Source of the DNA: a virus
Direction: 5' to 3' (one strand)
Length of the DNA: 25,326 nucleotides
Virus record (IMG/VR): IMGVR_UViG_3300032241_001329
Span: 1 to 25,326 of that record
A program made the translations under genes and the position numbers. The notes beneath the pieces were generated by a model, which made no database searches, was not told the origin of the DNA, and saw only the letters and a list, made by a program, of their open reading frames with translations. Positions 3,914-25,326 of the stretch are shown here, piece after piece; the first letter of the stretch is position 1; every line of letters starts with the position of its first letter.

Positions 3914-3961
3914 GGCGAGAGACAGGATTTACGCCCCTCTCTAAATAATCTTCGATTGCCC

Positions 3962-3990
3962 TTGACTTTGTGACAACCGTTGTGCATAAT
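3962..3990 (+). promoter_or_regulatory. sigma70-like promoter, CAACCGT spacer class
   Basis: TTGACT (3962-3967), 17-base spacer, CATAAT (3985-3990). The spacer has CAACCGT at positions 7-13, inside ACAACCGTTGT, a short near-palindrome. The leader word AACTGACCA follows at 4005-4013 and the ATG lies at 4030. Confidence 0.85.
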
Positions 3991-4029
3991 AGATGTGTAG
4001 TAAGAACTGACCACGAGAGAGGCAAACAA

Positions 4030-11639: not shown

Positions 11640-12266
11640 CTAGATTGACCAGACGTTGCGAGACATGATCCCTACCGGATCAACAATCGGCGTTCGCTTC
11701 CTCAGTCGAGAGCCTTGCAAGTTGAGTTCAGCAATCGCCCAGACGAGCGCGTCCACTCGGTCAGGAGATACCCGTCCCCGACCACTCTCGCCCGGTATCC
11801 ACGTGGTCATCTGTTCCTCTAGGAGAGCGAACTTCGATGGGTCGCCTACATGGTGAACGCGTCCTTGTTCGTAGAGGGCCACGATGGGTTCGGCGCGGGC
11901 CTTCTTGTTCTCGCGAGCGTTCGGCCTGACGATCGGCAAGTCGGGTCGCTTCGTGCGGAGACTCATCTCAAGCAGTTCCCTGCCTTGATTGTCTTCCACC
12001 ACAACGAGACTGGCGTTCCATGCGTCGTAAACCTCAATCACACGGTCAAGCCACTTGTCCACTGAGTTCTTGTTAGAGCGCGTCAGGGTGGCATCTTGTA
12101 GGACGTAGGCATGTGCGTTGCAGGTTTCGATGGAGCATGTAGAGGGTTGGTGAGGGCCAGAGGCGGCCACGATAATCCCTGTTTCGTCGGCGTTCTGCCC
12201 AGAGGTCACGGACGGATCAACGCCGACCACGATGCGGTAGAAATCGTCGGGGGTTATAGCGATCAT
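11640..12266 (-). CDS. terminase large subunit, nuclease domain
   Basis: This 208-aa protein corresponds to the C-terminal RNase H-like nuclease of phage large terminases. It has VVGVDPS (D17), VVVEDNQGRE (E91/D92) and SPDRVDALVWA (D169/D172), which together supply the acidic metal-binding residues that cut concatemeric DNA during packaging. A conventional terminase would carry this after the ATPase in one chain. Here it starts at its own ATG (12266) that overlaps the ATPase stop in ATGA. It begins MIAITPDDFYRIVVGVDP, which in fused homologs would be the interdomain linker. So the two halves are separate polypeptides made by coupled translation. Confidence 0.9.
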   Translation of the reverse strand: MIAITPDDFYRIVVGVDPSVTSGQNADETGIIVAASGPHQPSTCSIETCNAHAYVLQDATLTRSNKNSVDKWLDRVIEVYDAWNASLVVVEDNQGRELLEMSLRTKRPDLPIVRPNARENKKARAEPIVALYEQGRVHHVGDPSKFALLEEQMTTWIPGESGRGRVSPDRVDALVWAIAELNLQGSRLRKRTPIVDPVGIMSRNVWSI

Positions 12267-13219
12267 GCGGCGTTCGGCAACAAGAGTTCAGCGCGCCCTG
12301 TCTCAATCATCTCTAGGTTCCACATAGCACCTTCGACGTCGGTCAAGAGGGTTCCCATCAACTCTTGCTCACCGATGCGGGTTCCCTCATAGGCGGCCAG
12401 AACACTCTCCTTGAACGATGGTGCAAGGTTGGAGAGGTTCTCATAGGTCGTGCCTTGAGTAATCACGGTAGAGGCGCGCTCCATGATTTGTCGCACTAAC
12501 TTGACGCGCTTAGGGGTCGAGGTGATGAGAACACGCGGTCGAGTGCCGAGGCGCAGACCGAGCATGAGGTTGTTGTATGAGGTGTCTAAGGTGTCACCCT
12601 TCGGCGCATCTGTCCATGCGGCCAACTCGTCGCACCATGCCGCGTCGTGTTGCGGTCCACGAAGTTGGCTCGGGGCTGCGGCAGAGTAGGTGAAAGCCTG
12701 CGCTCCGTTCGGCCAGACCAATCGGCGTTTCGTCGGTTCGTGATGTGGTCGAGGGTTGGGCGCAGAGCAGTTCATAATCCCACTGTCCCCGTAGATCATC
12801 ACATCTCGGACGTCCGCAGGGGTTCTACCAACGAGGGCGATGCGCTTGTAGCCTTGGTTCCATACGAGGTCGAGAACCCACTCAGCCCCGCCACGGGTCT
12901 TCCCCGTTCCACGTCCACCACTGTAGAACCATGCCAACCACGAGGTATTCGGGTCTTCCTTTGGGGGTCGCTGCGCTGTGCGAGCGTGCTTGCAGAACGG
13001 CGTATGTTGCCCGTCAATCGGGTGGTCGCACCAGTGAAATCCGGCGTGCGGTTCGCCATCACAAGTCGCTCGGTTGCAATACCAACGGCGCGTGGGGGTC
13101 TTCTCTAGGCGGTCAAGTTCAGCGAAGACAACGGCGAGTTCTTCTGAGGTCAAAGCCGACAAGATGCGCTCCCGATCCTCAACCTTCGCTTTCAGCAGCA
13201 GGGCAATAGTCGGGTTCAC
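12263..13219 (-). CDS. terminase large subunit, ATPase domain
   Basis: From GTG 13219 the protein is 318 aa. Walker A is GGRGTGKT (about 101-108) and the Walker B-like AAWCDE (about 193-198) carries the catalytic acidic pair. LITSTPK fits the coupling motif that follows. A Cys/His-rich stretch (about 46-80: W-Y-C, C-D-G, H-W-C-D-H, C-K-H) precedes the ATPase and may bind zinc. GTG 13219 overlaps the stop of a 28-aa upstream ORF in GTGA; a longer GTG start at 13273 is possible. The ORF ends in ELLLPNAA just before the nuclease ORF. No portal or capsid gene follows. Confidence 0.92.
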   Translation of the reverse strand: MNPTIALLLKAKVEDRERILSALTSEELAVVFAELDRLEKTPTRRWYCNRATCDGEPHAGFHWCDHPIDGQHTPFCKHARTAQRPPKEDPNTSWLAWFYSGGRGTGKTRGGAEWVLDLVWNQGYKRIALVGRTPADVRDVMIYGDSGIMNCSAPNPRPHHEPTKRRLVWPNGAQAFTYSAAAPSQLRGPQHDAAWCDELAAWTDAPKGDTLDTSYNNLMLGLRLGTRPRVLITSTPKRVKLVRQIMERASTVITQGTTYENLSNLAPSFKESVLAAYEGTRIGEQELMGTLLTDVEGAMWNLEMIETGRAELLLPNAA

Positions 13220-13302
13220 GGCTTCCGAAGGAATGAAATCAACAATGCAGTAGCGAAACCGATGCCGGCGCACTCAAGATACGTAAGCCAATGGTGAGAC
13301 AT
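13216..13302 (-). CDS. 28-aa hydrophobic peptide ahead of terminase
   Basis: ATG 13302 is preceded by AGGAGG at ideal spacing, the strongest ribosome-binding site in the region. The peptide reads MSHHWLTYLECAGIGFATA then LLISFLRKP, with one hydrophobic segment and a basic end. Its TGA overlaps the terminase GTG in GTGA. It could be a real membrane mini-protein or a leader peptide that delivers ribosomes to the weak terminase start. The ribosome-binding site lies in a hairpin (13305-13331). Confidence 0.6.
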   Translation of the reverse strand: MSHHWLTYLECAGIGFATALLISFLRKP

Positions 13303-15028: not shown

Positions 15029-15171
15029 CATACCTTCGGTGCGTGAGATGCATGGTCTTCTCTCGGTTGCGCGGTCGTGCGCCGACACCACCAATCCTGC
15101 GTCAAAGTGTGGCGATACTGGTGTCCAGAGGGGTAGATGCTCTCCCCACAGTTCTTGCAGATTTCCCTCAT
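15028..15171 (-). CDS. 47-aa zinc-finger-like peptide
   Basis: ATG 15171 overlaps the stop of the preceding 26-aa membrane peptide in ATGA. The frame reads MREICKNCGESIYPSGHQYR with C5-x2-C8 (CKNCG), followed by H-x-H-like residues and WWC, which could complete a small zinc site. This type of C-x2-C-G-x...H/W-C peptide is common among phage mini-proteins. The longer in-frame extension upstream lacks a credible start. Confidence 0.6.
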   Translation of the reverse strand: MREICKNCGESIYPSGHQYRHTLTQDWWCRRTTAQPREDHASHAPKV

Positions 15172-15248
15172 CGAGTAATCCAGACCGCAAGAGCGATTGC
15201 TCCCATGAGAAACCCTCCAACGAACTCCATTACTGCGAGTGCGATCAT
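15168..15248 (-). CDS. 26-aa single-span membrane peptide
   Basis: ATG 15248 is preceded by GAGAGGTGGAAACG and overlaps the upstream stop in ATGA; its own TGA overlaps the next start in ATGA. The peptide MIALAVMEFVGGFLMGAIAL then AVWITR is one transmembrane helix with glycines in the middle and a basic end. It is short enough to be missed by usual gene callers. Size and shape recall small membrane toxins, holin-like or regulatory peptides, none of which can be assigned. Confidence 0.62.
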   Translation of the reverse strand: MIALAVMEFVGGFLMGAIALAVWITR

Positions 15249-15478
15249 CGTTTCCACCTCTCCATCTCTGCGTCGTTGCTCTCTTGTTGTTGCGCCATGG
15301 CGTTGCCAAGGGCTTCTAAACAGTCCCACCAGCCTTCGCAGTAGCCCTTATAGTGGTCGCTCGGCGGTTCCCCGATGGTGTCGGGTGGTTCAGGCTTGTT
15401 GGCGAGGACACGCTCGTAGATGAGGTCTAGGAGCAACTTCTCTTGCCGGTTGATGTTGGCGATGACTTCTCGGCTCAT
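15245..15478 (-). CDS. hypothetical protein, 77 aa
   Basis: Starts at ATG 15478 in an ATGA overlap with the upstream stop. Its first part is a helix (SREVIANINRQEKLLLDLIYERVLANK), followed by PEPPDTIGEPPSDHYKGYCE and an aromatic, cysteine-containing segment (GWWDCLEALGNAMAQQQESN). The GY-x-x-GWWDCL pattern resembles small phage proteins of unknown role; I cannot name the family. Longer in-frame start 19 codons upstream is unlikely because it would overlap the preceding gene more deeply. Confidence 0.7.
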   Translation of the reverse strand: MSREVIANINRQEKLLLDLIYERVLANKPEPPDTIGEPPSDHYKGYCEGWWDCLEALGNAMAQQQESNDAEMERWKR

Positions 15479-16023
15479 TGGTTTCCACCTTCCTTGGACA
15501 AAGTTGTTCCTGTAGGGGTAAGTTTCTCCCCGCACAGTGGGCAGTAGGTGTAGTCAATCCATTGGAAGTCGGGATTGGCTGCGCTCGGCAAGATTTCACT
15601 ACCGACGATGTGCTTGCACGGGGGCGGCGTGGCGATCAACTCTGCTTCCACCCAAGCGTCATCACGACCCTTGCTATCGACAACCGTATAGACGGTGTCT
15701 ACTTGTGTCACGGTAAGGTCGCCCCACTCCGGGTTGGCAATCAGCCGCACACTGTCACCCAACTTGAACTTCGGCGGCTTGACTACGGGTGCGGGAATAC
15801 CTTGATAGTCATCTGACGCAACATTATGGGCGTCAATACTATTCACTGCCATAACATTCCCCTCTTCTTCTGGTCGGTGTGTATGGAGAACCTTGCCTTC
15901 GGGCTGCTCGGAAACATAGCAGACCACCGGCCCCCAATCAGTTGTCCGAGAACCATCGGTGGGCTCAAAGTCCCCCCACTCGTTTTCACTAACCTCTTTA
16001 CCGCAACGCTGGCATCGAGCCAT
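15475..16023 (-). CDS. zinc-ribbon/SH3-like/zinc-ribbon protein, 182 aa
   Basis: Three parts are visible: an N-terminal C-x2-C (CQRCGKEVSENEWG) that may be half a zinc site; a central SH3-like segment (about 84-130: FKLGDSVRLIANPEWGDLTV then TQVDTVYTVVDSKGRDDAW); and a C-terminal ribbon (CKH...YTYCPLCGEKL, about 136-169). The last two also make up the 87-aa paralog at 16688-16951, and the YxxCPxCGEKL ending recurs at 16081-16395. Start ATG 16023 has AAGGAAG upstream after a 57-base gap, the longest of this operon. Confidence 0.8.
   Translation of the reverse strand: MARCQRCGKEVSENEWGDFEPTDGSRTTDWGPVVCYVSEQPEGKVLHTHRPEEEGNVMAVNSIDAHNVASDDYQGIPAPVVKPPKFKLGDSVRLIANPEWGDLTVTQVDTVYTVVDSKGRDDAWVEAELIATPPPCKHIVGSEILPSAANPDFQWIDYTYCPLCGEKLTPTGTTLSKEGGNQ
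15593..15601. repeat. ATTTCACTA nonamer inside the 182-aa gene
   Basis: Exact copy in the coding region for GSEIL; a one-mismatch copy (TTTTCACTA) lies near 15984 in the same gene. Confidence 0.6.
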
Positions 16024-23964: not shown

Positions 23965-24174
23965 TTAGGCAAGGTGCAGTTCACTCGCTTGACAGAAGAC
24001 CGAATGACGCTTGCCGTCAAACAGGACTTCGATGGGCCAGACAACATCACTCGTCACAACTCGGACAACCGTTCCATTGGCCTGAGCCGGAACGACATGA
24101 TCACCAAGGTAGTGCCGGATTTCCGTCACGGCATACACCCGTGCGCCCTCAGTAAGACCGTCTTCGATACTCAT
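23965..24174 (-). CDS. SH3-like small protein, 69 aa
   Basis: ATG 24174 has TGGAGGTAGCG upstream, a good ribosome-binding site. The sequence has EGARVYAVTEI, ANGTVVRVVTSDVVWPIEVL and FDGKRHSVFCQASEL, the alternating pattern of an SH3-like barrel. Its stop abuts that of the convergent metallophosphoesterase (TAG at 23962-23964, TAA at 23965-23967). A weak leftward promoter may lie around 24200-24230 (TTGTCG, 18 bases, TAGGGT). Function unknown. Confidence 0.74.
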   Translation of the reverse strand: MSIEDGLTEGARVYAVTEIRHYLGDHVVPAQANGTVVRVVTSDVVWPIEVLFDGKRHSVFCQASELHLA

Positions 24175-24330
24175 CGCTACCTCCAAGTGGCTTGACCGCG
24201 CCACCCTACACGCAATACCGCACACTCGACAAGGGGGCAGGACTATACGGGGGTAGAGTTAGTGAAATAGGGGTCAGAAAAAAATCTGGTTCCCACTCTG
24301 CCTTACTGTAGGGGGGTGGAGTAGGGTAAA

Positions 24331-24414
24331 GATTTCCGGAAGGGGTGAGGGGGGTCAGGCCGACCTTGATAATGATAAAAGCCCTTGAGATTTCTGGGGA
24401 TTTCCGGAAGGGGT
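24331..24414 (+). repeat. 16-bp direct repeat GATTTCCGGAAGGGGT, two copies
   Basis: Exact copies at 24331-24346 and 24399-24414, 68 bases apart start to start. Each contains the palindrome TTCCGGAA. Confidence 0.85.
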
Positions 24415-24420
24415 CTTTCA

Positions 24421-24457
24421 CATAGGGCGGGGTCACATGACCAGCCCCCCCCCTATG
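24421..24457. repeat. inverted repeat with a C9 tract
   Basis: CATAGGGCGGGG (24421-24432) pairs with the C9 tract plus CCTATG ending at 24457, with one C-C mismatch. Its centre is a separate palindrome, GGTCA-CA-TGACC (24431-24442). The C9 run (24445-24453) should be prone to slippage. Confidence 0.7.
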
Positions 24458-24526
24458 TCGCATCGTGTCGTAAGAACCTCTCTATTCTAGTGAAAACAAG
24501 GGGTTGTTGTTCCTCTTGTCGGTTGT

Positions 24527-24543
24527 CTAGCCCCCCCCCCTAG
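24527..24543. repeat. C10 tract flanked by CTAG on both sides
   Basis: CTAG (24527-24530), ten C residues (24531-24540) and TAG (24541-24543), where the last C completes a second CTAG. An unusual homopolymer for this genome. Confidence 0.7.
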
Positions 24544-24593
24544 CCTACTTGTAGAGAGGGATTTCACTAGAGATTGTGATGGGAGTGCGCTGT

Positions 24594-24718
24594 GATGGAT
24601 CGGGGTTTGTTCCTGTTGCGGTTTGATGGATCGGGTTTCGACGGTCGAGTGGGGGTGGGGGTAGGGGATTTCACTAGTGCGCGCACTTACCTGCTGCGCT
24701 GTGGGGTTGCGGTTTGAT
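24594..24718 (+). repeat. short direct repeats GATGGATCGGG and GTTGCGGTTTGAT
   Basis: GATGGATCGGG at 24594-24604 and 24625-24635; GTTGCGGTTTGAT at 24615-24627 and 24706-24718. They interleave with the G tracts and the nonamers. Confidence 0.75.
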
Positions 24719-24817
24719 AGCCCTTCCTTGTCGGGTGGCGGGTGTCCTGTTCCTCCATGTAGAGATGCAGAGCGTTCGGGGAGTATGGGGGCCATCGAAG
24801 AAATCTTGCAATAGGCC

Positions 24818-24846
24818 TTGACTTTGTGACAGGCATAGTGCATGAT
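24818..24846 (+). promoter_or_regulatory. sigma70-like promoter
   Basis: TTGACT (24818-24823), 17-base spacer, CATGAT (24841-24846). Shares TTGACTTTGTGACA with the promoter at 3962, but lacks the CAACCGT word. Leader word AACTGACCA at 24860-24868. Confidence 0.8.
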
Positions 24847-24879
24847 GGAGATGTGAAGCAACTGACCAAGGAGAATGAA

Positions 24880-25086
24880 GTGAACGCAACCATGAAGTTT
24901 GAGGCGACTTGCCCGAAGTGTGACACCGTGACGGTGCTTGACCTTGATGTTGAGGCCTGCCGGCAGTGGGTCGTAGAGAATGTGAAGTTGCAGGACGCAT
25001 TTGCCAACCTCTCCGCCACCGAGCGTGAGGTGATCAAGTCCAACCTTTGCCCGCCTTGCCAGAAGCGGTTTGCGAACAGGGCATAG
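24880..25086 (+). CDS. tandem zinc-ribbon small protein, first copy, 68 aa
   Basis: GTG 24880 lies 7 bases after AAGGAG and after the promoter and leader word; ATG 24892 is an alternative. C-x2-C (CPKC) near the N terminus and CPPC near the end form the two halves of a zinc ribbon, separated by a helix (VEACRQWVVENVKLQDAFAN). The next gene is a close paralog. The role is unknown. Confidence 0.82.
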   Translation: MNATMKFEATCPKCDTVTVLDLDVEACRQWVVENVKLQDAFANLSATEREVIKSNLCPPCQKRFANRA

Positions 25087-25152
25087 GGCGTATCGGAAAT
25101 AATCTTCCGTTTGGACTGAACTTCGAAGGAACTGACCATGAAGGAGCAACCA

Positions 25153-25326
25153 ATGACCAACGCAACCAAGACCCTTGATGCCCACTGCTCGATGTGTGGA
25201 ACCGTGACCCGTGTTGAGGTGGACGCCGAAGCCTACCGGCTGTGGAGCGTTGAGGGTGTGAAGGTGCAAGATGCCTTCCCGAACCTCTCGCCTGCTGGAC
25301 GCGAGATGATCAAGTCGGGCTACTGC
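25153..25326 (+). CDS. tandem zinc-ribbon small protein, second copy, partial (window end)
   Basis: Fifty-eight codons are visible from ATG 25153, which follows AAGGAG and the leader word AACTGACCA (25130-25138). It aligns with the preceding gene: CSMCGTVTRVEVDAEAYRLW, VKVQDAFPNLSPAGREMIKS, then Y-C at the window end. The first C-x2-C is kept and the second would fall past the edge. No promoter is evident in the 66-base gap, only a small hairpin (CGGAA...TTCCG), so it is likely cotranscribed with the first copy. Confidence 0.82.
   Translation, partial: MTNATKTLDAHCSMCGTVTRVEVDAEAYRLWSVEGVKVQDAFPNLSPAGREMIKSGYC

Follow-up and report, generated by a model that had tools for sequence, protein, structure and literature searches.

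Background

What does a phage keep in the only large gap between its genes? The window, by which we mean the whole stretch of DNA analysed here (25,326 nucleotides; G000), is a linear contig of viral DNA, 25.3 kb long, in which positions 24175-24879 form the sole intergenic gap of at least 350 bp. A first-pass annotation of this DNA noted G/C tracts, repeats and opposed nonamers in the gap and likened the combination to replication origins, packaging sites or termini, and multi-operator regions. Replication origins usually have repeats, a strong local skew and a large non-coding gap. Short, asymmetric words that are enriched genome-wide, including inside genes, are familiar as the Chi and DNA-uptake words of bacteria, which are words of the host genome. 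In bacteriophage SPP1, a multi-box pac near terS overlaps promoters, and TerS-binding boxes flank the cleavage site (PMC6316719). In Cluster A mycobacteriophages the stoperators, which are 13 bp long and number about 20-30 per genome, lie at promoters and in short intergenic spaces and are the sites of the immunity repressor (PMC6550527, PMC9283540).

In this paper we compare the window with related viral contigs and weigh what the region may do. It is best read as the region in which a large freshwater phage keeps its main cis-acting controls; that the group comes from fresh water is our reading of the contig sources.

Methods

Relatives were retrieved through the metallophosphoesterase, a small plus-strand gene and the terminase, and contigs were read whole where needed. 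The comparison set comprised 17 related viral contigs, among which G016 is the same phage as G004, and G018 the same phage as G017, from other samples. A DNA search of the phage collection matched neither the region nor the terminase, and a search of bacterial genomes with terL found no relative. Genes of the relatives were called with a simple codon-usage script, not a standard gene finder. At the left border of the region the script favoured an overlapping plus-strand ORF (24004-24195) over the minus-strand gene at 23965-24174, and the latter was chosen by eye because of its ribosome site. Tracts and repeats were compared with 500 dinucleotide shuffles of region 24175-24879.

Results

The non-coding region and its borders

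The region and the features at its borders are as follows.

24175-24879, no strand: main non-coding region of the phage fragment, with a minus-strand gene on its left and plus-strand genes on its right
23965-24174, minus strand: small gene of 69 aa with a GGAGG ribosome site, downstream of the conserved element
24818-24846, plus strand: sigma-70-like promoter TTGACT-17-CATGAT for the plus-strand genes, with a near-copy at 3962 in the window
24860-24868, plus strand: leader word AACTGACCA, 11 nt ahead of the GTG start

The region had been called non-coding, and it does run exactly from one gene start to the other, that is from the ATG at 24174 (minus strand, GGAGG before the start) to the GTG at 24880 (plus strand, AAGGAG before the start). 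A family search with the 69-aa gene gave no match. The region is not AT-rich, and its GC skew of +0.26 to +0.29 is the largest in the window, where the maximum elsewhere is 0.15.

The leader word AACTGACCA occurs 10 times in the window (4005, 10088, 18129, 19919, 20335, 21272, 21552, 21903, 24860 and 25130), mostly 13-18 nt ahead of start codons, and is found in G010 too. It resembles the start-associated sequences of Cluster K mycobacteriophages but differs from them in sequence (PMC3203893). Window positions 3960-4013 and 24816-24868 form near-identical promoter-leader units (CCTTGACTTTGTGACA-N6-GTGCATrAT ... AACTGACCA) before different plus-strand genes. The genes at 24880-25086 and 25138-25326 are tandem small paralogs with two CxxC pairs (phrog_20898), and the series continues in L038.

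Tracts, repeats and local structure

24445-24453, plus strand: C9 tract, inside the imperfect palindrome ACATAGGGCGGGG...CCCCCCCCTATGT (24420-24458)
24531-24540, plus strand: C10 tract, with CTAG on either flank
24651-24655, 24657-24661 and 24664-24667: G runs forming G5-T-G5-TA-G4, followed by ATTTCACTA at 24668
24331-24346, plus strand: copy A of the exact 16-bp repeat GATTTCCGGAAGGGGT, overlapping the conserved element
24399-24414, plus strand: copy B of the same repeat
24558 and 24665: exact 13-bp repeat GGGATTTCACTAG
24615 and 24706: exact 13-bp repeat GTTGCGGTTTGAT
24275-24288, no strand: hairpin-like palindrome CAGA-AAAAAA-TCTG, beside GGGGTC

The C9 and C10 tracts, the G runs, the 16-bp and 13-bp repeats and the opposed nonamers that the first-pass annotation had listed are all present where it placed them. 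Dinucleotide shuffles seldom or never reproduced the long C tracts, so many G/C runs or a 16-bp repeat: two runs of at least 9 have p 0.002, 19 runs of at least 4 have p 0.004, and the 16-bp repeat was reproduced in 0/500. The C9 and C10 tracts are the only G/C runs of at least 7 in the window. In many relatives a non-coding gap close to terS and terL likewise holds tracts of C7-C8 or G7-G10. Two samples of one phage differ in tract length (C8+C6 vs C8+C8 in G004/G016), and G019 reads G10 vs G9 across the overlap of its own contig ends; the tracts are therefore unstable or else poorly assembled. The 16-bp repeat is not kept in the relatives and is present in 13 viral contigs, none of which has the element or the word described below. 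In one relative the palindrome reads GGGGTC-GGGA-AAAAAA-TCCC, with its stem altered relative to that of the window.

The G-quadruplex potential of the region is weak, in agreement with the caution first expressed: neither strand has a G3+N1-7 motif, and a single match (24396-24432) appears only if loops are allowed to reach 12. Rfam gave no match at E up to 1, folding z-scores were -1.7 to +1.6, and 11 records, several of which are partial, contained no tyrosine integrase (PF00589). The region thus gives no sign of a structured RNA, an attP or a strong G-quadruplex.

A conserved minus-strand element

24273-24423, minus strand: conserved cis-acting element by profile match (about 140 bp), with a leave-one-out core of about 125 bp at 24400-24277
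24377-24395, minus strand: box 1, AGAAATCTCAAGGGCTTTT (consensus AGAATTTCAAGCGACTTT), from the alignments
24342-24356, minus strand: box 2, GACCCCCCTCACCCC (consensus nACCCCACACACCTC), from the alignment

The element is present in nine phages, the window and eight others. With the window in the seed, nhmmer gave the window element E 8.9e-21, and a profile built without the window still found it at E 4e-9. The same leave-one-out procedure returned the element as top match in each case, at 8e-8 to 2.4e-13 for G004, G007, G008, G010, G012, G013, G017 and G020. The annotation had said that its reading would be refuted by a missing depth or skew signal together with no conservation of the repeats in relatives, and the answer is divided, for the 16-bp repeat is not conserved, another element that overlaps it is, and the local skew is strong. 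G011 looked by eye like a tenth carrier, failed the leave-one-out test and was dropped, and weak matches in G009 and L182 were not counted. A search with the pattern GGGGTCNGAAAAAAATCNNG gave no match, and the pattern of box 1, a gap and ACTAAACCC yielded just four contigs, all of them known carriers of the element, its remaining matches being due to chance.

The consensus runs CCCC-AGAATTTCAAGCGACTTT, about 20 bases, ACCCCACACACCTC and then box 3, ACTAAACC, which lies 53-55 bases after box 1 in typical copies and is not intact in the window's element. Box 3 is nearly confined to intergenic DNA in the relatives (G007, G008, G010, G012, G013, G015, G020 and others) and often occupies the spacer between TTGAC and TAnnnT, which marks it as linked to promoters in this phage group.

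Position relative to the terminase genes

The window encodes a split Terminase_6 large subunit (terL) on the minus strand at 13273-11640, with Terminase_6N/6C matches; the split, into 11640-12266 and 12263-13273, separates the ATPase from the nuclease, with an overlap of 4 bp. Many relatives have terL divided in a similar way, and some of these have a further insertion. The closest relative, G006 (L071), overlaps the right end of the window at 91% identity and carries terS (phrog_4102).

The element is co-oriented with terL in 9/9 phages (window, G004, G007, G008, G010, G012, G013, G017 and G020), a count that is weaker than a coin-toss calculation would make it because the orientation of terL is common to most genes of these phages. 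Co-orientation is kept despite opposed neighbours, namely the flanking plus-strand genes in the window and the next downstream gene in G013 and G020. In six of the eight phages with a known terS the element lies within about 2.4 kb downstream of that gene: 0.4 kb in G004, 1.2 in G017, 1.8 in G008, 1.8 in G020, 2.4 in G013 and about 1.6 in the window, the last inferred by joining two different phages (the window and G006) at their shared segment. The distance is 9-12 kb in G012 and G010, and the G007 contig is without terS. In 6/9 phages the element sits in the largest or sole big gap. It stands directly ahead of the same methyltransferase gene in G004, G007, G012 and G017; a different gene follows it in G008 and G010, and the next gene is on the opposite strand in G013 and G020. 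Element divergence tracks that of TerS no better than that of TerL (Spearman 0.30 vs 0.35).

A genome-wide word

24260-24268, minus strand: word ATTTCACTA, copy 1, near the -35 position upstream of TATAGT (24247-24242, minus) and of the gene starting at 24174, the promoter being read by eye
24488-24496, minus strand: copy 2, TTTTCACTA, with one mismatch
24561-24569, plus strand: copy 3
24668-24676, plus strand: copy 4, adjoining the G5-T-G5-TA-G4 run

The opposed nonamers are copies of TTTCACTA, at 24260 and 24488 on the minus strand against 24561 and 24668 on the plus strand. The nonamer ATTTCACTA is not peculiar to the region, as the window holds 13 exact copies vs 0.19 expected and G006 holds 29 copies in 16.7 kb. 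Its form varies with lineage: GATTTCACTA in the window, G006, G012 and G019; GATTTCACTG in G011, G017 and G018; GATTTCAGTA in G010; and ATTTCAGCA in G014 and G015. TTTCACTA belongs to the window's lineage, and CACTG, CAGTA and CAGCA variants are found in relatives. G013 and G020 have no genome-wide enrichment, and the flanks of the copies are not conserved.

Most copies lie inside called genes (36/54 in G012 and 25/35 in G019). Synonymous-codon shuffles gave 0.06-2 coding copies vs 5-37 observed, which rules out codon usage as the cause of the word, and the excess over this expectation is 6- to 48-fold in every allowed frame and on both strands. An excess in all allowed frames points to selection, or another process, acting on DNA and not on protein. 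In the main gap of nine phages, G019 among them, the density of the word rises another 7-fold, with 21 copies seen vs 2.9 expected (p 5e-12, a somewhat optimistic value because the word pattern was fitted to each lineage); this clustering is driven by the window (4 vs 0.3), G019 (6 vs 0.26) and G013 (2 vs 0.02). In a two-copy scan, the only viral contigs among 2.9 million in which the word was dense were members of this phage group, and none of the genomes scanned from 84,980 species of bacteria and archaea was dense in it.

Two other repeated sequences were observed. A second over-represented word family, AGTTTTGGAA / TAGTTTGGAAA, is genome-wide in G012, G014, G015 and G009, and G019 has a strong GC-rich repeat, CCAGGCCCGC, present 14 times vs 0.02 expected.

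Discussion

A possible packaging start or transcription control

What the control region most likely includes, judged from its sequence and held with less than even confidence, is a pac-like packaging start as in SPP1. We rank this reading above a replication origin, and its main competitor is pure transcription control. As in a pac site, a conserved cis element lies near the terminase genes in a fixed orientation (9/9; 6/8 near terS), and co-orientation with terL together with the usual place shortly downstream of terS would fit packaging. G017 closes by a 127-bp overlap elsewhere than the element, and the ends of G012 and G019 overlap imperfectly, with mismatches or the G9/G10 difference, which suggests circular assemblies broken by polymorphism; circular or near-circular assemblies of these three phages fit permuted headful genomes.

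If the element is a packaging start, TerS would bind concatemeric DNA at it and TerL would make the first cut of headful packaging there. Transcription would start from the same region as the packaging cut, much as the SPP1 pac overlaps promoters. The cluster of words, for its part, would be a site of high occupancy for a sequence-specific DNA-binding protein that also has sites dispersed through the rest of the genome. The likeness to SPP1 pac consists in multi-box DNA near terS that overlaps promoters, a constant terminase orientation, genomes that assemble as circles and a separate origin inside the initiator gene (PMC6316719). The present element, a candidate pac, differs in that it lies downstream of terS, not at its start, and is remote from that gene in two phages. 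Counting against packaging are the distance in G012 and G010, the failure to track TerS better than TerL, and the methyltransferase adjacency in four phages. A packaging start at this position would give a large group of uncultured freshwater phages a packaging signal that can be tested.

It is possible, if somewhat less probable, that the region serves transcription control only, with the boxes as activator or operator sites of a promoter in the terminase direction, the word copies as operators and the whole as a divergent promoter region. The cluster of a genome-wide word fits operators, and the recurrence of box 3 at promoters elsewhere in the genomes, strongly intergenic and often between TTGAC and TAnnnT, favours this explanation. 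The window region is itself divergent, with TATAGT ahead of the minus-strand gene on one side and TTGACT-17-CATGAT at the right end, and the methyltransferase gene directly follows the element in G004, G007, G012 and G017. However, the element is not tied to one target gene, because the next gene is opposite in G013 and G020 or different in G008 and G010, and its copies are without a clear -35/-10 pair at box 3.

A possible self-recognition word

The word is a more surprising part of the finding than the element. A word that varies by lineage and is enriched in all allowed frames is what would be expected of a DNA-reading protein with evolving specificity. We consider it doubtful, and yet worth stating, that it is a genome-wide address kept in genes by selection on DNA, concentrated at the main non-coding region and read by a phage-encoded protein for genome organisation, protection, recognition or packaging, which would amount to a self-recognition system. 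To our knowledge a phage system of this kind has not been described, and we know of no such word system in phages that have neither an integrase nor a classical repressor. A ParB-like protein was considered as the reader and rejected: it occurs in seven records and is absent from G014 and G015, which carry a variant of the word.

The nearest known analogue is the stoperator of Cluster A mycobacteriophages, likewise a short, asymmetric, genome-scattered word with variants between related phages (PMC6550527, PMC9283540). The present word is 8-10 bp long, however, reaches up to 100 cores per genome and lies mostly inside genes, and neither an HTH_3 repressor nor a tyrosine integrase was found in these phages (11 records, several partial). 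Chi and the DNA-uptake words share its shortness, asymmetry and genome-wide spread but differ in that none of the bacterial or archaeal genomes scanned was dense in the phage word.

Less likely readings: replication origin, neutral DNA and fixed terminus

That the region is the phage's replication origin seems unlikely, even with the repeats, strong local skew and large non-coding gap it contains, and with the two origins of SPP1 as a precedent that leaves room for a second here (PMC6316719). The origin is probably elsewhere. G006 has 3.4 tandem 21-bp iterons at 15484-15555, inside an O-like initiator gene (15052-15876), and this array is the probable origin of the phage group; four units of 21 bp are likewise present at the initiator gene of G013. 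The case is limited by the initiator genes of G011, G012 and G017, in which the same test found no iteron array. None was found in the region or its counterparts either (0.47-0.50, same as null). Iterons of 21 bp inside an O-like gene recall origins of the Lambda O / SPP1 gp38 type, and the G006 candidate occupies another part of the genome than the region does. Downstream of these iterons are TTGTCCAC words that resemble DnaA boxes. A skew check had also been proposed at the outset. The local GC skew was indeed strong, but the complete genomes showed monotonic skew, with no switch at the element and no origin signal, and the lack of AT-richness in the region likewise speaks against an origin. 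Among the functions first suggested for the region, an origin is disfavoured and a cos has no clear support, and a packaging signal and an operator cluster stay as candidates.

Quite improbable, too, is that the region is neutral, fast-evolving intergenic DNA with homopolymers and repeats that do nothing. Relatives do not keep the 16-bp repeat, and tract lengths vary between samples of the same phage (G004/G016) and in G019, so for the C/G tracts and this repeat the neutral reading may hold; for the element and the word it is contradicted by the leave-one-out match at E 4e-9 and by the clustering of the word in homologous gaps. Least probable is a fixed terminus (cos or another defined end), to which the near-complete contigs G012 and G019, broken inside the region, and the ends of the window and G018, within about 1.1 kb of the element, might point, since the two breaks are explained by polymorphic overlaps, G017 circularises elsewhere, no shared cut point was seen, and a cos is without clear support because the relatives assemble as circles or near-circles.

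A further non-coding stretch in two phages

Apart from the region, a non-coding stretch of 419 bp is shared by L054 (4556-4973, minus strand) and L081 (8949-9364) and is 92% identical in these otherwise diverged phages. It has a TTGACT-17-TACAAT promoter, a terminator-like hairpin, a folding z-score of -3.1 and no Rfam family, and is a candidate for a new phage non-coding RNA.
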